DNA from: a virus
Strand: one strand, 5' to 3'
IMG/VR virus record: IMGVR_UViG_3300023174_000101
Coordinates: 1-64,000 of that record
DNA length: 64,000 nt
The translations under genes and the position numbers were made by a program. The first letter of the stretch is position 1. Every line of letters starts with the position of its first letter. Of the stretch, positions 5,837-30,321 are shown piece after piece. The notes beneath the pieces are model-generated. The model saw only the letters and a list, made by a program, of their open reading frames with translations. It ran no database searches and was not told where the DNA came from.

Positions 5837-8800
5837 ATGTCCTGTACAGCATACATTTTGATGAATGGCGTCCTCACTCCAAATGAGGGCTTGTCAATAG
5901 GTTCACAAGTAACTTTAACTAACCAGGACGACACAGGAGTAGTTACTTGGGCCTGGACCATTGTATCTAAGCCAACAGGGTCAACGACCACACTAACAGG
6001 CGCGTCGTCTGCTACTGCTTACTTTACTCCAGACGTTGAAGGTGCGTATCTAGTTCGCCTGATAGTAAATAAAGACTTGGCGACTGAGGAGCAGGGCACG
6101 TCTGTGGGTCGCGTGAAGACGCTACACAAGAATTTACTGCCGCACGCGAAGGACGAGACTTCAGAAGGCCATCCGGTAGAGGGGTGGGCAAAGGCATGGC
6201 GTGAGTCATACTTGAAAGTGGATAAAGCACTAGGCATCCCATCGGACCGCCGCACTGTAAAGTATTCGGACTCTGCAACCACCGGACCCGTGTTCCTTGC
6301 TGCAGATGGCACGATGTACACCATGGCAAACGGCGATGTGGTGCCATCGGTGCGTCTTGCCACTGCGGCTGACGACAAGCAGGCTATGTTCCTGTTTGAA
6401 TCTGGCGCTCTTGCCCCAGGTGTGGTTACGGTTCTTGCGCATGGCATGTCTGCTTCCGTGCCGCTCACAGGTGTGTCTGCTGGCGACAAGTTATACGCAT
6501 CCACCAATGGCTCAGTTGTAAACTCGTCCTTGTCGTATCTGCACAGGGCATTAGGCTACTGTATTTATGTGTCGAGTGGTGTCGCACGTGTGTGGTTCGC
6601 ACCAACCGACCACACACTGCTCAGCACGATTAACCACGAGCAGCTCCAGGGATTGCTCGGTGGCGCTGTTAGTGCGCACTACCACCTAAATCTGAATCAG
6701 CACAATGCAGTAAATGGTGCAAACTCACCAAGCTCTTCTAACGTATTCGCGACCATAAATGACTTATCTGGTCACGTGCCAGCTACACGCAAAGTAGAAG
6801 GCACAGATGGCCTTACTGGTGGTGGGGCTTTAACTACAGACCTGCAGATAAGTATGCCGAATGTTGGCAGTGCTGATACGTATGGCACTGCGTCTAAAGT
6901 ACCAAGATTAACAACGGATGCCAAGGGGCGTGTATCCGGCGTAGTCGAGACTGACATTTCAATCGCACAATCACAGGTCTCTGGACTAGTGGCTGATTTG
7001 GCGGCGAAAGCAAACAAGACCATAACTGTATCTGCCGGTGGTGCGTTGTCTGGTGGCGGAGACTTAACCACAAACCGCACAATATCGCTCAATACGATAC
7101 ACTCTGGGTTTAGTGCTACAGGTGGTTCAACCACGATACCTATTATCACAGTAGATTCTTACGGTAGGGTAACAAACCTTACTGGTCAATCAATAACGTA
7201 TGGTACCGGTACATTACAAAGTATAACGTTTGACGTATCAAACACTGGTTTAACTATTAACGGCAATGCTTCTAACGCCACTGTAAATGGGTCTAGCGGC
7301 ACGTTTACACTAGCCGGTGTCCTTCAAGCAGACAATGGTGGTACTGGTTTAAGCACGTACGCACAGGGCACGATGTTGTACGCTGGGTCTGTAAACCCAA
7401 CGGCTCTCACCCCGCTACCGCTAACGGCAAGCAAGGTGTTATTGTCTGGGGCAAGTGCACCAAGCTGGGGGTCATTACCGTTAAACAATAGTTCATACGT
7501 TACCGGCACACTGGCCGTGGGCAACGGAGGTACTGGTTTAACTAGCTATGCAATTGGTGACATAGTATACGCGAGTGCAGCTGGCACACTAGCTGGACTA
7601 CCTACTGGAACTGTTGGCCAGCTATTAATTGGTCAGGGTGCTGCAACGGCTCCAGCATGGAAGACTGTAACGTCGAGTGGCGACGTAACTGGTCTTACTG
7701 CAGCCGGTGCGTTCACTGTCGGCAAGATTAACGGCGCAACAGTACCAGCTGCTGGTTCCTTAACAACTGGCCACGTGCTACAAGTGAACGGGGCAAGTGC
7801 GCTCACGTATGGTGCTATAAATCTTGGCGGCGGCACTAATTATGTAACTGGAATACTACCGATTGCACGAGGTGGCACTGGAACTTCAACAGCCCCGACT
7901 GCAACGCAGGTACTGCTCGGTAAGTCTGACGGCACTTACGAGCTTAGGACGTTCGCGCCTGGCACAAATACTACTGTAGATACGACTACTCCGAACCAAA
8001 TTAAGATTAATGCATCATTCACAGCACCTGTAACGTCTGTGTCTGGCACTGCTAATCAGATAAATCCGTCCAGTGCTACGACCGGTGCTGTTGTACTATC
8101 ATTGGCAGACACAACAGTATCGCCAGGCACGTACGGTGACGGCGGCTATGTCCCACAGATACAGATAGATTCAAAGGGAAGGATAACTTCAGCGCAGAGC
8201 GTGGCCATAGACTTCCCTTCAATATCGCAAATCAACTATGGGGCGATGCGTAATTACGTAATCAATGGTGCCTTCGACTATTGGCAGAGGGGCACGTACC
8301 ATACAATCACGATGAGCAGCACGTCTCAGCCTAGATATACAGCGGATAGATGGTGTGCATATGTCAACACTGATGCCAGCGCAACATTTACAATCGATAA
8401 GTGGTATGGTCTAACTGACGACTCACAGACGGGCTGTTTAAGATACTATAGACTTAACAACGGCCTACAGAATGCAGCACAGATTAGAAGCATAGGCCAT
8501 AACGTAGAGCAGGAATTATTAAATCAGTTGCGTGGCAGGAAGCTAAGACTGTCGTTCTACTATAAGATGTCATCATCCTTCATATCATCAGTCTCGAAGG
8601 CGTCAACACTGACCGATAACATATTGGTCAGAATTGTGCACACGAATTCGCCCGCGAATAGGAACAGAGCATTTAAAGCGTACTACTCGTCACCTGCAAC
8701 TAATACCAATTTTATACTCAATAGATCGATCAAGCCAGCGTCAAGTGGCGTTACAGCGGACACGTGGGTAAGGTTTGACTATGTAAGTCAAGACGTACTG

Positions 8801-9415
8801 CCCGCAGACACGACTGCAGCTGCAGTCGTCGTGTCATTTGAACATGGTGACACCGCAAACGCTTCAGAGTTCTTCTACTTAACTAATTTCATGCTACTTG
8901 ACGCAGGCACGACCGGCAGTTATGGTAGTGTCGATATCCCATTTCTGTACTCGTCTGGTACGCTTGCGAACGAGCTTGTTGCATGCCAGAGGTACTACGA
9001 AAAGTCTTGGGAGATAGACGAAGCCCCAGGTACTGTAACTTTTGCTGGGATGGAAATCGGATATAACAATTCATCTGGAACACTGGTGGCAAATACGCCA
9101 TGGAGATTTACGCCGCATCCAAAGTTTAAAGTTAGGAAGCGTAGCGCACCTAGCAGTGTTACATTGTATGGATTCACAGATACGAACGCCGCTGGTGTGC
9201 AGCCTTCAATTTTGCAATCCGGATACTGGCAGGTTGGCGCGGGTGCAGACTCAGATGGAACATATGTGTACCCAACAAGTGGTGGCGCTGCACATAAGGC
9301 ATCATTCGCGACTTCAATAACAGATAGTGGATTTATGGTCGCGTCTGTGTCTGCTATTGGCTCTGGCACTGGATATTCGTTTGGTCATTGGACTGCAGAC
9401 GCTGAATACTACTAA
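5837..9415 (+). CDS. Tail fibre protein with Ig/PKD-like N-terminus and GGTG repeats
   Basis: A 1192-aa fibre. Residues about 5-85 look like a PKD/Ig-like domain (WTIVSKPTGS, FTPDVEGAYLVRL). From about residue 300 the protein carries the repeats common in long phage fibres: GLTGGGALTTD and GALSGGGDLTTNRTI, then NGGTGLSTYAQGTMLY, NGGTGLTSYAIGDIVY and RGGTGTSTAPTATQVLL. The C-terminal 390 residues start with YVINGAFDYWQRGTY, a motif seen at the start of phage receptor-binding or carbohydrate-binding tips. It sits just downstream of baseplate J. Likely receptor binding; the receptor is unknown. Confidence 0.75.
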   Translation: MSCTAYILMNGVLTPNEGLSIGSQVTLTNQDDTGVVTWAWTIVSKPTGSTTTLTGASSATAYFTPDVEGAYLVRLIVNKDLATEEQGTSVGRVKTLHKNLLPHAKDETSEGHPVEGWAKAWRESYLKVDKALGIPSDRRTVKYSDSATTGPVFLAADGTMYTMANGDVVPSVRLATAADDKQAMFLFESGALAPGVVTVLAHGMSASVPLTGVSAGDKLYASTNGSVVNSSLSYLHRALGYCIYVSSGVARVWFAPTDHTLLSTINHEQLQGLLGGAVSAHYHLNLNQHNAVNGANSPSSSNVFATINDLSGHVPATRKVEGTDGLTGGGALTTDLQISMPNVGSADTYGTASKVPRLTTDAKGRVSGVVETDISIAQSQVSGLVADLAAKANKTITVSAGGALSGGGDLTTNRTISLNTIHSGFSATGGSTTIPIITVDSYGRVTNLTGQSITYGTGTLQSITFDVSNTGLTINGNASNATVNGSSGTFTLAGVLQADNGGTGLSTYAQGTMLYAGSVNPTALTPLPLTASKVLLSGASAPSWGSLPLNNSSYVTGTLAVGNGGTGLTSYAIGDIVYASAAGTLAGLPTGTVGQLLIGQGAATAPAWKTVTSSGDVTGLTAAGAFTVGKINGATVPAAGSLTTGHVLQVNGASALTYGAINLGGGTNYVTGILPIARGGTGTSTAPTATQVLLGKSDGTYELRTFAPGTNTTVDTTTPNQIKINASFTAPVTSVSGTANQINPSSATTGAVVLSLADTTVSPGTYGDGGYVPQIQIDSKGRITSAQSVAIDFPSISQINYGAMRNYVINGAFDYWQRGTYHTITMSSTSQPRYTADRWCAYVNTDASATFTIDKWYGLTDDSQTGCLRYYRLNNGLQNAAQIRSIGHNVEQELLNQLRGRKLRLSFYYKMSSSFISSVSKASTLTDNILVRIVHTNSPANRNRAFKAYYSSPATNTNFILNRSIKPASSGVTADTWVRFDYVSQDVLPADTTAAAVVVSFEHGDTANASEFFYLTNFMLLDAGTTGSYGSVDIPFLYSSGTLANELVACQRYYEKSWEIDEAPGTVTFAGMEIGYNNSSGTLVANTPWRFTPHPKFKVRKRSAPSSVTLYGFTDTNAAGVQPSILQSGYWQVGAGADSDGTYVYPTSGGAAHKASFATSITDSGFMVASVSAIGSGTGYSFGHWTADAEYY

Positions 9416-24903: not shown

Positions 24904-25739
24904 TATACTCTCTCAACCTCCCCAATCTGGTTCTGTACGTCGTACTTGATTAGATCTAAGTAGTGCCTTAAGCGCATCTGCACAGCCTGCCTCGTGACTT
25001 TGTACTTCCTAGATAATTCTGCGAAAGTCTCTTCTTCTTCCGCTAAGTATCGGCCTTCTAGAATTCCCATGTCCTTGGCTGGCACATGCTTCTTCATAGC
25101 CTTAATAGCTAGGTCGTACACCTTATTCATGTCCATTTTATACTGGATTTCTGACTCTATGTCAGTTCCCGACTTGAGCATATTGCCCAGGGCACGCTCG
25201 TAATTGTCGGCTTCATTTGGATCGCCAAGGATTTCAGAAGTAGACTTTTCGCCAGCTATCTGCTGCAGCACACGCTCCACCTGATCGTCGGTCACTTCAA
25301 GAAAGTCCTTAACTTCGCCTACGAGTTCGCTCCACCCAAGCTTCCCGCAGTGCTTAGATTGCACGTATGCGCATGCCTTCGAGAACGTGTGCGACAGTGC
25401 GTACGAGCCCTCTGTGCTGATATACTTCACGTTGCGCGTCTTAAATGTGTAGTACTTGTATATTAAGTTCTTGATGTGCCAGCGGGCAAAGGTATTCAGG
25501 TTAACGCCACGGCTTGTGTCGAACGACTTCACCCCGGCCATGAACCCGATGCACCCCTCTTGGAACAGGTCCTCGCGCAGGTCATTGTCGTGTTCATTAG
25601 CCTTAACGATGTCGCCAATGATTGCGTAAATGAGGCCGTAATTTTCCTTAAGAAGCTTCTCACCTGCCCACTCGTCGCCATTCTGATAGCGCGTGACGAG
25701 TTCGTATTCCTGCTCTCGATTAAGTGCGTACTTACCCAT
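24903..25739 (-). CDS. Sigma-70-family RNA polymerase sigma factor
   Basis: 278 aa. Region 2 is clear (LREDLFQEGCIGFMAGVKSFD, NLNTFARWHIKNLIYKYY, about residues 53-98): core binding, -10 recognition and melting. Region 4 is the C-terminal HTH (TFAELSRKYKVTRQAVQMRLRH, residues about 235-260), for -35 recognition. Region 1.1 is missing, as in phage and group 3 sigma factors. It overlaps dnaE by 8 nt. It would redirect host RNA polymerase to phage promoters. It is one of three sigma-like proteins in the window and the most canonical. Confidence 0.85.
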   Translation of the reverse strand: MGKYALNREQEYELVTRYQNGDEWAGEKLLKENYGLIYAIIGDIVKANEHDNDLREDLFQEGCIGFMAGVKSFDTSRGVNLNTFARWHIKNLIYKYYTFKTRNVKYISTEGSYALSHTFSKACAYVQSKHCGKLGWSELVGEVKDFLEVTDDQVERVLQQIAGEKSTSEILGDPNEADNYERALGNMLKSGTDIESEIQYKMDMNKVYDLAIKAMKKHVPAKDMGILEGRYLAEEEETFAELSRKYKVTRQAVQMRLRHYLDLIKYDVQNQIGEVERV

Positions 25740-28700
25740 TGATTTGATACCGTGCCCGTAGCGTTGCTAGTCCTGCGAAGTCGTTTGGTCGGATGAACGC
25801 GATGTTCTTGAGCATGACTACATGCCCCATATTCATGATTTGGTCAGACAGAGTGGCGATTTCTCCGCCAATCTGTAGTGCGACTGTGTTGGCAGTCGGC
25901 ACATCTGCGGCGTAATAACTATTGATTGGGATGCCATTGCTTATAGGAGTCACGCCATTCACGTAAATCGTGTTCTCGCCCAATCGGAACTTATCCTCCT
26001 GGATGGTGCCAGTAATCAGCGCCATGCTGTTGTCTGGCACGCGGTTGAACACCTGGGTCGCCAGCGGACTCCATACCATAACCTCGATGTTGCCCATCTG
26101 GTCACCCACCCGCATGCGTAGGAAGGGATCGCCTTTCTTCGTGGTCTTCATTTCGCGGGCTTCGACTACACCAGCCACCACCACGCGGCTCCCCACCTGC
26201 TGCTCCTGCAGCTGGCTCGGCGTAATCATATTCAAGTCTGGGAAGAGATTGAATAGTGGCTGGTACTGCATGACTGGGTGGGACGAAATGTAGAAGTTAA
26301 GCACCGCCCGCTCAAACGCGAGTGCCTCCTGCTGGTCCCAGTCCTTGTCGTCGATTACGATTTTGCTCAGCACTTGGTCGCGGATAAGGTCATCACTCAC
26401 CTTGCCTTCGAACTTCTTGATGATCTTTTGGATAAGCTCTACGTTCTCGAACTTGTTCTTGTCCGTGATGCTTGAGTCCCAATTGAACGCCCCTGCCTTA
26501 ATCAGGTTCTCCTTCACCGTCTTGTTGCAGCGGGTGTACGGGGACATCCGCATGCAGAAGTCTACGAAGTCCTTGAATGGACCCTTTTGGTCACGTTCGT
26601 TAAGAATAGCCTCCACAGCCGTGTCACCAGCCATACGAACGGAGAACAGACCCATGTAAATAGCGTTCCCATCCGTGTAGAATTCGGACCGGGAATTGTT
26701 GATATGTGGCGGCAGGACCTTAATACCCTTCTGGATAATGGATGATAGCAGGATTTTGAGTTGGTCATTGTCGTCCAAGTTCACGTTGAGGAGTACCGTG
26801 TAGTACTCGTACGGGAAGTGGGTCTCCAAATAGGCGGTTACGTACGAAATGTAAGAGTACGCGATGGAGTTGTGGACTACGAACCCATTTGCAATGAAGT
26901 TCGGGTCCTGCTCCATTTCCAGGTCCCATACATGGGCTGGTTCGTCCAATTCAATGTTACTAGTTACGTTCCAGCTATAAATTATCTTTTCATGATCAAT
27001 AATGTGTGTATTAGGTGCGGTGTCGAGTTCAGTAGCGACCCCAATGTCGTTGTAGCTAACTGCCAGACTTGTCTTAGCAGAAGCGACACGAAGCGCATTG
27101 CTTGTATTGAGTGTGGAGTCGATACTGTCGTTGGCAAGTGGTCTCACTCTAGAAGATGTAGGCCCTGTCAGGCCAGAACCGACCCGTATGAGGTCAGCAA
27201 GGAACTCATACTCAGTCTGCACGCCAAGGGTTTCCCATCTAAACAGATTCGCATCATGCTTCCCTTTAAGGCGTCCAGCGCCAGCCTCTCTAGAAAGCTT
27301 AAGCAGTGGGGAGTCGGAGGCAACAGGGTTGGAGTTATTACGCCCGAAGTCATCGCCATGATAGACGACATAATCGCCAATGATGGCGTCACTAGCCAAC
27401 TCGCCATCGCCAAGCGACTTGCAGCCAATGGAATATTCGTTAACCCCAAATCCATTTATAAATTTATTAGGCGCAGAAAGACCGTTGGCAGAAGCTATAG
27501 GAAGAAAATTAAGCTCTCTATCACTGACACTGTTCTTGAGAGGGACGGAGGCGCTTGTGTGATTTGTAAATCCACGAGTAGGCTCCAGGTCCATCACATA
27601 ATTCCGTACAGTATTGTTCAGTCTGACCCCATATGGGATCTGGTCACCGTTTGCGTTAGGTGTCACACTGACGTCGAAATTAGTTACAGGAACCCCCTTA
27701 TTAAGCATTTCAACGCTGTCCCCAGGGAGAAGCTGGTCGGCGTTTTTATACGCCTTTTTGGAGGACAGGATAGGGTGGTTGCCTGTACAGGTGATAGACC
27801 TGCCGTTAGCAGTGATGGTCCTGACGGGCTTGATACCATTGTCGATAACATCAACGACGCGATTTCTAAAGAGATCGCCAGTATCGTGTCTGACACTCCA
27901 TAGCTCTTCGCCAACCTTCACGTCCTGAATGTCAACCCACCCACGCTCGCAGGTGAGCACATTCGTGCCTTCCTTGAGGCAGTGGCCCTTATTCCAGTTA
28001 TACCGTGCAGAACCCGCAAGCTTGGCCGTAATATCGTCCATGAACTCCTTGGTGTGGCCGTTCTTCATGCCGAATTCACGGAGCTTCTGCTGCACGGCTT
28101 CGAACTTTACCTTGTCCTTCTTGCCGATTGCAGACCGGTACTCATCGGCCTCTGTCTCATTGAACCCGCCGATAATGCGGGCGATGGACATAACCTGCTC
28201 TTGGAAGATACACACACCCAGGGTCGGGTCGAACACTTCCTTGAGCGACGGGTGCCACACTTCAATCGGCTCTCGCCCGTGTCTGCGCTCAAAGTAGTGC
28301 TCCATGATTGACAGTTCCTTGCCAATCTTGAGCATGGGGCCAGGGCGGTATAGGGCGTTGAGTGCCACTAGGTGGTTAAACTCAGTAGGATACAGCTGCC
28401 TAGCTGCCGTACGGATGCCTGACGAGTCGTACTGGAAGACCGACACGTACTTACCGTTTGCAACGTTATGAAAGGTCGCGGCATCGTCTAGTGGGAAGCC
28501 CTGGTAGTCAAGCTTAATCCCGTGCCTGCGCTCGATGAGTTCAAGCGTGTACTGAATCAGGTCCATCGTCTTAAGACCCAACATGTCCAGCTTGAGCAGG
28601 CCGAGTTCTGCGATGTCCTTCATGTCGTACTGCGTGACACGGTAGCCTTCTGCAGAGTCCCGGATTAGGGGCACATGCTCCTCAATCGGGTCGTTCGAAA

Positions 28701-30321
28701 TCACAATGCCTGCGGCGTGTGCGCCCAGGTTCTTATTGTTGCCCTCGAGCTTCTCCGAAATGTCGATCCAGTTCGGGGTCTGCTCCATGATTTGCTTTGC
28801 CCGACCCACCGACTCTACAAGCTCGCGTACGTGGTCGTCCTTGGTCACATCGTCGCCAAGTAGCTTGGACACCTGACGGCGCACAGCAGAGGGGACACCC
28901 AGGGCTCGGCCCACGTTGTCGATTGCGGCCTTCGCCGCCATAGACTGGAACGTTACGATTTGCGCCACCCGCTCCTTGCCGTAGCGGGCCACGATGTAAT
29001 CGATAACCTCTTTGCGGTGCTCCTGCGAAATATCGGTATCGATATCTGGCAGGTCCTTGCGGCCCTCGTTGATGAAGCGTTCGAAAGGAACGTCATGCGT
29101 CACGGGATCCATGCCGATGATATACAGGCAGTAGCAGACGAGCGAGCCCATGGACGAGCCACGTCCGATGGGCGGGAGGATTCCACGCTTACGCATTGCC
29201 CCATCGATAATGTCTGCGATGATGAGGAAGTAAGACGAGAAGTTCTTGCGCTTAATCATGTCCAGTTCGAACATGAGGCGCTCTTGGTGGACCTTACTAT
29301 CCGCCAGCCCACGTTCGGCCAGACCCTGCCATGCCTTAAGCTCGAGGAGCTGCACACAAGCCTCTTCGGACAGGGCATCGCCATTGTCGATGCGGAACAG
29401 GGGAATCTGGGCCGGGTGCTTATTCGACGTCAGCTTAAACCCGTAGTCCTCCACCATCGAATTAATAAGTTCGGTATTGGTCAGCGCGGACTCCGGAATG
29501 TCTGCAAGCTTGGCCATTCCGTCCATCTCCTCCGCCGTCTTGAACCAGTATCCTTCGCCGTTGAAGCGCCAGTGGGACGGGTCCGCTAGGGTCTTGTTCG
29601 TGCCCACGCAGAGTGCGACCTCGTGCGCGGTCTCGTCACCCTTGCTGGTGAAGTGCGAGTCGTTGGTCAGTACGAGCGGCACACCGTGGCGATTGGAGAT
29701 GTCAATCAGCGCCTCGTTGACCACATCCTCCTCTTCCCCAATGCCGTGGTACATAAGTTCCAGGAAGAAGTTCTCACCGTGAATGGCCCGCATCCGGTCG
29801 ATGACTTCTATAGCCTTGTCCTTTTGTCCTGCCACGATGTAGCGGGATGTAATGGACGCCAGACAACCGGACATCACAATCAGGCCATCTTTATACTGAG
29901 ACAGCACGTCGAGGTCGATACGGGGCTTCTTGTAAAAGCCTTCGCGGTACGAAATCGTGGACAGCCTCTTGAGATTCTCGTATCCCTGGCGGTTGCGAGC
30001 GAGGACCGTAAGGTGGTATGCGTGGTACGAAATATCGCCGTTCTCGGCGTCCTCAGACGCCTTCGCCTTGGTGGAGTACGTGCGCCCAAACCGGCTGTCC
30101 GGTGCGACGTAGAACTCAGTCCCGATGATGGGCTTGATGTTCACATCCTTGCACGTCTTGTAGAATGAAATGGCATTGAACACGTTGCCGTGGTCCGTAA
30201 TGGCCAGCGCCGTCTGGCCGTACTCCTTCGCCTTGCGGGCCAGGTCCTCGCGGCGGGAAATACCATCTAGGATGGAGTAGGTGGTGTGTACGTGCAGGTG
30301 TGTGAAATTCTTAATCGTCAT
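25732..30321 (-). CDS. dnaE: DNA polymerase III alpha subunit (DnaE type) interrupted by an intein
   Basis: 1529 aa including a 371-aa intein (residues 781-1151), so the spliced polymerase is about 1158 aa, normal for DnaE. An N-terminal PHP domain (THLHVHTTYSILDG, ALAITDHGN) is followed by the palm with catalytic aspartates (GRGSSMGS, LPDIDTDIS), the tau-binding/HhH region and a C-terminal OB domain (VVVAGVVEAREMKT). The intein splits WNKGH from SIAYSYISY. It is probably the replicative polymerase, next to the phage primase-helicase, SSB and UvsW-like genes. No separate epsilon or beta clamp is seen here. Confidence 0.93.
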   Translation of the reverse strand: MTIKNFTHLHVHTTYSILDGISRREDLARKAKEYGQTALAITDHGNVFNAISFYKTCKDVNIKPIIGTEFYVAPDSRFGRTYSTKAKASEDAENGDISYHAYHLTVLARNRQGYENLKRLSTISYREGFYKKPRIDLDVLSQYKDGLIVMSGCLASITSRYIVAGQKDKAIEVIDRMRAIHGENFFLELMYHGIGEEEDVVNEALIDISNRHGVPLVLTNDSHFTSKGDETAHEVALCVGTNKTLADPSHWRFNGEGYWFKTAEEMDGMAKLADIPESALTNTELINSMVEDYGFKLTSNKHPAQIPLFRIDNGDALSEEACVQLLELKAWQGLAERGLADSKVHQERLMFELDMIKRKNFSSYFLIIADIIDGAMRKRGILPPIGRGSSMGSLVCYCLYIIGMDPVTHDVPFERFINEGRKDLPDIDTDISQEHRKEVIDYIVARYGKERVAQIVTFQSMAAKAAIDNVGRALGVPSAVRRQVSKLLGDDVTKDDHVRELVESVGRAKQIMEQTPNWIDISEKLEGNNKNLGAHAAGIVISNDPIEEHVPLIRDSAEGYRVTQYDMKDIAELGLLKLDMLGLKTMDLIQYTLELIERRHGIKLDYQGFPLDDAATFHNVANGKYVSVFQYDSSGIRTAARQLYPTEFNHLVALNALYRPGPMLKIGKELSIMEHYFERRHGREPIEVWHPSLKEVFDPTLGVCIFQEQVMSIARIIGGFNETEADEYRSAIGKKDKVKFEAVQQKLREFGMKNGHTKEFMDDITAKLAGSARYNWNKGHCLKEGTNVLTCERGWVDIQDVKVGEELWSVRHDTGDLFRNRVVDVIDNGIKPVRTITANGRSITCTGNHPILSSKKAYKNADQLLPGDSVEMLNKGVPVTNFDVSVTPNANGDQIPYGVRLNNTVRNYVMDLEPTRGFTNHTSASVPLKNSVSDRELNFLPIASANGLSAPNKFINGFGVNEYSIGCKSLGDGELASDAIIGDYVVYHGDDFGRNNSNPVASDSPLLKLSREAGAGRLKGKHDANLFRWETLGVQTEYEFLADLIRVGSGLTGPTSSRVRPLANDSIDSTLNTSNALRVASAKTSLAVSYNDIGVATELDTAPNTHIIDHEKIIYSWNVTSNIELDEPAHVWDLEMEQDPNFIANGFVVHNSIAYSYISYVTAYLETHFPYEYYTVLLNVNLDDNDQLKILLSSIIQKGIKVLPPHINNSRSEFYTDGNAIYMGLFSVRMAGDTAVEAILNERDQKGPFKDFVDFCMRMSPYTRCNKTVKENLIKAGAFNWDSSITDKNKFENVELIQKIIKKFEGKVSDDLIRDQVLSKIVIDDKDWDQQEALAFERAVLNFYISSHPVMQYQPLFNLFPDLNMITPSQLQEQQVGSRVVVAGVVEAREMKTTKKGDPFLRMRVGDQMGNIEVMVWSPLATQVFNRVPDNSMALITGTIQEDKFRLGENTIYVNGVTPISNGIPINSYYAADVPTANTVALQIGGEIATLSDQIMNMGHVVMLKNIAFIRPNDFAGLATLRARYQING
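26869..27981 (-). mobile_element. In-frame intein in DnaE, with an antisense HNH gene inside
   Basis: A 371-aa intein. Cys1 is codon 27979-27981 (CLKEGTNVLTCERGW, block A), with block B (TGNHPIL) about 70 residues later. Block F (HVWDLEMEQDPNFIANG) and block G (FVVHN, Asn codon 26869-26871) are intact, and the +1 residue is Ser. The splice chemistry therefore looks complete. The centre, where a LAGLIDADG or HNH domain would be expected in this frame, holds low-complexity residues. Instead the complementary strand codes for an HNH endonuclease in the same codon register. Confidence 0.85.
26992..27903 (+). CDS. HNH homing endonuclease encoded antisense within the DnaE intein
   Basis: 303 aa from the ATG at 26992; the open frame extends further upstream but only as the mirror of DnaE. 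Domains: two zinc-ribbon-like pairs (CIRC/CQTC and CIEC/CRPC, residues about 6-59), an HTH-like region (TSQLAIAKRLAANG, PKSIYKFIRRR), then a clear HNH motif (RDGGACVICKSTSRLQVHH, CVRCHTDVE). It is the only + strand gene right of 18.6 kb. No good Shine-Dalgarno is visible; a CTATAAATTAT stretch just upstream could be a -10 element. It probably cuts intein-free dnaE to drive intein homing (inference). Confidence 0.8.
   Translation: MINNVCIRCGVEFSSDPNVVVANCQTCLSRSDTKRIACIECGVDTVVGKWSHSRRCRPCQARTDPYEVSKELILSLHAKGFPSKQIRIMLPFKASSASLSRKLKQWGVGGNRVGVITPEVIAMIDDIIANDGVTSQLAIAKRLAANGIFVNPKSIYKFIRRRKTVGRSYRKKIKLSITDTVLERDGGACVICKSTSRLQVHHIIPYSIVQSDPIWDLVTVCVRCHTDVEISYRNPLIKHFNAVPREKLVGVFIRLFGGQDRVVACTGDRPAVSSDGPDGLDTIVDNINDAISKEIASIVSDTP

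Follow-up and report, generated by a model that had tools for sequence, protein, structure and literature searches.

A probable mobile intein in phage DnaE with an HNH endonuclease gene encoded antisense and in codon register

The dnaE gene of a phage known from metagenomic sequence contains an intein, and the opposite strand of this intein carries a gene for an HNH endonuclease that uses the same codon boundaries. Inteins that carry an endonuclease are usually presented as a single fusion protein, with splicing and cutting in one frame. We consider it very probable that the element described here is a mobile intein in which one DNA strand serves splicing and its complement encodes the nuclease. 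The stretch analysed (the window) comprises positions 1 to 64,000 of IMG/VR record IMGVR_UViG_3300023174_000101, which has 98,360 bases in all. A previous sequence-only reading of the window had placed an HNH gene antisense and in register inside the DnaE intein. This is supported by our analysis, since the layout is kept by two deeply diverged relatives. Two refinements are that the HNH gene also overprints part of the splicing domain (intein residues 28-97) and that the window copy carries Asp216 in its HNH motif.

Results

The dnaE gene (30321-25732, minus strand) is a single unbroken frame of 1529 codons encoding 1529 aa, intein included. Its N-extein (residues 1-780; 27982-30321, minus strand) has the Pfam PHP, DNA_pol3_alpha and finger domains, and its C-extein, which starts at Ser1152 (25732-26868, minus strand, including the stop codon), has the HHH_6 and tRNA_anti-codon domains. 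The 371 aa intein between them (26869-27981, minus strand) runs from Cys1 to Asn371 with Ser as the +1 residue, and is preceded by NWNKGH and followed by SIAYSYISY. It matched PF14890 (5.5e-15) and, above cut-off, TIGR01443; the match to TIGR01445 (8.7e-5) reached 23.4 bits, just under the cut-off of 24.5.

The N-terminal splicing region (residues 1-97; 27691-27981, minus strand), with Cys1 and the block B motif TGNHPIL, could be aligned to mini-inteins (e.g. 4o1r) and to DnaE inteins. The C-terminal splicing region (residues 331-371; 26869-26991, minus strand) contains blocks F and G (DLEMEQDPNFIANGFVVHN), is covered by TIGR01443 and does not overlap the HNH gene. Thus the splicing blocks that had been read as complete (Cys1, TGNHPIL, the His-Asn end and the +1 Ser) are present. 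We infer from these sequence features that the insert in DnaE is a Hint-type intein with protein splicing activity. Family-model searches of the intein translation gave no endonuclease match in the dnaE frame, as had been claimed for the centre of the intein. The mini-intein structure 4o1r aligns to positions 4-89 and 340-377 of the intein profile. As it aligns only to both ends, the extra stretch occupies the position of the endonuclease domain in ordinary inteins. AlphaFold2 modelled the intein centre with a pLDDT of ~20 from a shallow alignment, equal to that used for the HNH protein, and this value neither confirms nor refutes the view that the centre is filler. The RNR gene of the same phage (window 52303-55332, minus strand) contains a second, ordinary intein (Cys1 at ~54501) with LAGLIDADG-like motifs in frame (LVGWLIGDGYL and LRGLFSADGHV), a conventional contrast within one genome.

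The antisense gene (26992-27903, plus strand) encodes 303 aa plus a stop codon on the codon boundaries of dnaE, so that HNH codon positions 1/2/3 pair with intein positions 3/2/1. Searched separately from the intein, which matched intein families, its translation matched HNH families: PF01844 at 4.3e-7, above the curated cut-off, phrog_1271 at 1.1e-11, and IscB, in its HNH part, at 5e-10. An absence of any HNH match, which would have counted against the antisense gene, was therefore not what we found. The parts that had been described for this 303-aa protein could be recovered. Two zinc-ribbon-like units (27004-27168, plus strand) are formed by the Cys-X2-Cys pairs C6/C9, C24/C27, C38/C41 and C56/C59; they gave weak Zn-ribbon Pfam matches and belong to the confident part of the AlphaFold2 model. 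A helix-turn-helix-like region (residues 118-160; 27343-27471, plus strand) gave weak matches to Arg_repressor and HTH_38, with helices at pLDDT 64-78. The HNH catalytic region (residues 184-229; 27541-27678, plus strand) contains HHIIP, CVRCH and Asp216 and was delimited by the Pfam match and an alignment of three copies. Residues 1-160 were mostly modelled at pLDDT 64-86, again from a shallow alignment; this agrees with coding on the HNH strand but is weak evidence. Foldseek with the HNH model was uninformative.

Residues 1-233 of the HNH protein, i.e. the zinc ribbons, the HTH-like region and the HNH domain, lie opposite intein residues 98-330, and the last 70 residues face intein residues 28-97, in the splicing domain. 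The stop codon TAG (27901-27903, plus strand) is the antisense of the intein Leu27 codon CTA.

Relatives of the window were found in IMG/VR after the DnaE motif DLPDIDTDIS had been turned by hand into a degenerate DNA pattern, which retrieved four contigs (L017, L018, L019 and L020). When IMG/VR was scanned with default patterns made from the HNH, intein or DnaE N-extein sequence, no relatives were detected, nor did a scan with a DnaE alignment detect any; the HNH alignment, the intein C-terminus and the insertion-site motif, used as further queries, led back to the same contigs and to nothing else. Searches of GenBank phages, plasmids and ~690 genomes from a single bacterial phylum, sampled in two overlapping draws, matched only the HNH core or at most HTH plus HNH. 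A full-length relative of the HNH protein outside these inteins was not found in these searches, nor was a second intein/HNH copy in these records.

In L017 and L018, the same position of DnaE (in L017 one codon on) is occupied by a homologous intein, and a homologous HNH gene runs antisense to it, in a register relative to the intein frame that is identical in all three phages. The paired layout is known from only three copies, all in metagenome assemblies. Loss of the HNH frame in relatives that keep the intein frame had been named as a finding that would refute the antisense gene; the opposite was seen, with both relatives retaining the HNH frame. Each of their HNH proteins is 45% identical to that of the window. 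PF01844 matched all three (best 6.4e-8), and the eight cysteines of the zinc-ribbon-like units, HHIIP and CxxCH are invariant. The stop codon in L017 and L018 is the antisense of the intein Ser29 codon TCA. Identity among the inteins is 32-34%; their ends are near-invariant, the final 19 residues varying hardly at all. The N-terminal nucleophile, the TxxH of block B, block F, the His-Asn end and a +1 residue (Ser in the window, Cys in L017, Ser in L018) are present in all three. The boundary of the L017 intein (8213-9364, minus strand) has slid one codon downstream (GHA|C...N|CGYS versus GH|C...N|S), and both boundary readings restore a DnaE of unchanged length.

The codons TTA, CTA and TCA each make a stop codon in the opposite, in-register frame. 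The earlier coordinates and counts hold: the window HNH gene is in exact register and encodes 17 Leu and 27 Ser with zero TTA, CTA or TCA. From the codon usage of each phage, we expected 8.6 such codons in the HNH gene of the window (P0 7e-5), 14.1 in that of L017 (P0 3e-8) and 17.6 in that of L018 (P0 2e-10), together ~40, and found none. No other gene of at least 200 codons lacks them (0 of 45 in the window, 0 of 15 in L017 and 0 of 18 in L018). Their absence is more striking in L018, which is A+T-rich (GC 0.37). We conclude that the intein frame is actively kept open.

To separate selection on the two strands, we applied two resampling nulls to the codon alignment, in which one protein was kept, its synonymous codons were redrawn and the identity of the other frame was scored. 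With only the intein under selection, an HNH identity of 19-20% was expected, whereas 42-45% was observed, and none of 2000 resamplings reached the observed value in any pair. The HNH strand was above the null from end to end, most bins having z values of 5-8, with lower values at the linker (residues 169-188) and the C-terminus. With only the HNH protein kept, the intein identity over the overlap was 23-29% versus 20-22% expected. In intein residues 77-330, every 22-codon bin was at the null (z -1.0 to 1.8); residues 55-76 (z 4.5) and 34-54 (z 7.4) were above it. The same test on the DnaE exteins, where an antisense gene is not expected, gave z values of -0.3 to 1.2.

Codon-position rates gave the same picture. 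In intein residues 77-330, first positions changed fastest (0.64-0.70) and third positions less (0.43-0.47), a mirror image of the normal pattern seen in the exteins and in the non-overlapping intein ends. The substitution analysis that had been suggested for finding the selected strand in relatives thus resolved two zones. Over intein residues 77-330 the HNH strand alone is conserved and the intein reading is merely kept open. Intein residues 28-76, opposite HNH residues 255-303 (27754-27900), are truly dual-coding, with both frames above the resampling null and both proteins constrained.

These data bear on the possibility that the antisense ORF is a chance by-product of an intein with few stop-making Leu and Ser codons and that its likeness to HNH proteins is meaningless. 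Where TTA, CTA and TCA are rare, long in-register antisense ORFs can indeed arise by chance, and the DnaE gene of Saccharomonospora phage PIS 136 has an annotated antisense ORF of 3147 nt. However, a Pfam match above cut-off, antisense HNH homologues in three phages at 45% identity, the 0 of 2000 resamplings and the lack of any effect in the extein control leave this explanation a negligible probability, and conservation of the HNH frame refutes it. The PIS 136 ORF (JX006077.1, 2005-5151, minus strand), annotated as a Na+/proline symporter, is probably a spurious annotation that arises from a G+C-rich antisense frame.

Selection might also act on the HNH gene only, the intein being a decaying, non-splicing remnant in a DnaE that is dead or replaced. 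The lack of conservation in intein residues 77-330 beyond what the HNH protein forces would agree with this. Yet the frame is open in three diverged phages against ~40 expected stop-making codons, the splicing blocks are near-invariant, intein residues 28-76 and 331-371 are conserved, and the exteins are 41-48% identical with a normal codon-position pattern. We rejected this reading on the open frame and the conserved splicing blocks and exteins, and regard it as very unlikely.

Conversely, the central segment could be a new functional domain in the dnaE frame, such as an endonuclease, with the antisense HNH gene secondary to it. Intein identity is slightly over the null across the entire overlap, but the excess is confined to residues 28-76 of the splicing domain. 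All 22-codon bins of residues 77-330 are at the null, and this segment has no family match and evolves fastest at first codon positions. In view of the null-level conservation and the mirror-image codon rates we rejected a hidden domain, which we hold to be extremely improbable.

L019 and L020 have a dnaE without an intein at the same site. In a tree of DnaE exteins, the intein-bearing L018 is sister to the intein-free L019 (98/99), the intein-free L020 lies outside this pair, and the remaining carriers, the window and L017, fall elsewhere in the group. The carriers are therefore not monophyletic, which implies a patchy distribution by transfer or repeated loss. Intein-free alleles and patchy carriers fit the expectation for a mobile element. 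Between the window and L018, the HNH proteins (45% identical) are not less similar than the polymerase exteins (41%). The insertion site, GGNCAY, lies within a highly conserved polymerase motif. A contig of 4870 bases binned as an Actinomycetes MAG (JANXME010000354.1) has kinase, dUTPase-like, sigma-like and DnaE genes in the order of the window, its DnaE being 59% identical, and stops short of the intein site; it is a phage contig and possibly a hint at an Actinomycetes host.

The large neighbours of dnaE are all on the minus strand, so the HNH gene on the plus strand needs its own transcript. We infer that it is transcribed, and expression is the weakest link of our account. A TATAAA hexamer (26976-26981, plus strand), 10 nt upstream of the HNH ATG, is a weak candidate for the -10 element of an internal promoter; a sigma-70 scan did not report it and gave no convincing promoter for the HNH gene. 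A Shine-Dalgarno sequence precedes the ATG in L018 (GAGGT), and none does in the window or L017, which have A+T-rich -10-like hexamers 6-10 bases upstream of the ATG (TATAAA and TATTAT, respectively). This combination is compatible with leaderless transcripts. A T4-type late promoter was considered and rejected, as TATAAATA is absent from the record. In each of the three phages, GTTCCA occurs 10-18 bases 5' of the HNH ATG (window 26967-26991, L017 8335-8359, L018 3514-3490). It is out of frame with the Trp-Asn codons in L018 and derives from those codons in the other two; it could be due to chance or be a regulatory element.

Discussion

Our findings make it probable that the pair is a conserved two-strand mobile element, in which a splicing element and its own homing endonuclease are kept in codon register and the splicing domain is partly dual-coded with the nuclease. 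Its proteins have diverged to ~45% (HNH) and ~33% (intein) identity while the layout was kept. On the minus strand, read with dnaE, a Hint-type intein would excise itself from the polymerase, and intein residues ~98-335 would be filler with no detectable sequence constraint beyond the lack of stops. On the plus strand, a separate HNH endonuclease would be made from its own antisense transcript and would cut or nick intein-free dnaE at the conserved site GGNCAY. Repair would then copy the whole block into the intein-free gene, and protein splicing would hide the insertion from the polymerase. As a plausible origin, the HNH gene may have been inserted backwards at the usual endonuclease site, and its C-terminus may later have been extended over the splicing domain. 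The sequence-only reading had called the nested antisense gene a homing gene; the gene itself is observed, while homing by the HNH protein, like its target site, is putative.

Both genes could be real and the HNH protein nevertheless no longer engaged in homing of this intein, being either inactive or domesticated, for example for exclusion of competitor phages or antisense regulation of dnaE. The Asn of the HNH motif is structurally important in HNH enzymes, and with Asp216 in its place (WDLVTVC) the window copy may be weak, much like a copy that decays in the course of a homing cycle. HNH proteins of phages may also serve other roles. But L017 and L018 have the Asn (WNLV), the entire reading frame is kept, and the patchy distribution with intein-free alleles at the same site fits mobility. 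We therefore consider loss of the homing role unlikely, although less so than the readings rejected above.

The paired element resembles large inteins with in-frame LAGLIDADG or HNH endonucleases (PI-MtuI in RecA; DnaB, DnaX and DnaE inteins) in its Hint blocks, the usual endonuclease position, a host gene for DNA replication and insertion in a conserved motif. It differs in that the endonuclease stands apart from the intein protein and has its own gene, in register, on the other strand. In 'fractured genes', where an endonuclease gene of its own interrupts a split intein, the endonuclease is likewise an unfused protein, but both host gene and intein come in two pieces, whereas the intein here is continuous. 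Free-standing phage HNH proteins (phrog_1271, phrog_7370) share the HNH domain and the Zn-ribbon/HTH arrangement, and IscB has a similar HNH domain. Antisense homing endonuclease genes have precedents in mobile group I introns, such as Dsq.L2066 in Didymium (PMC9548176). There, too, the endonuclease gene lies opposite a self-splicing element, but the host element is an RNA intron that need not be translatable. In the DnaE intein, by contrast, the same DNA must also remain translatable without a stop, and one part of it is dual-coding in the true sense.

In the openly licensed literature we found no antisense endonuclease gene within an intein, which agrees with the novelty claimed earlier for the arrangement but does not prove that none has been described. 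Inteins with homing genes are of a known kind; this one stands apart in having its homing endonuclease gene on the other strand and partly dual-coded.

Uncoupled from the polymerase, the nuclease can be made without DnaE and at another time. The Hint domain tolerates as junk ~250 residues that are the meaningless reverse of another gene. The element is, moreover, one of the rare overlaps that come with an internal gauge of strand-specific selection, combining a zone that is coding on one strand and open on the other with a doubly selected zone. Antisense ORFs within inteins, which gene callers drop, deserve searches for nucleases.
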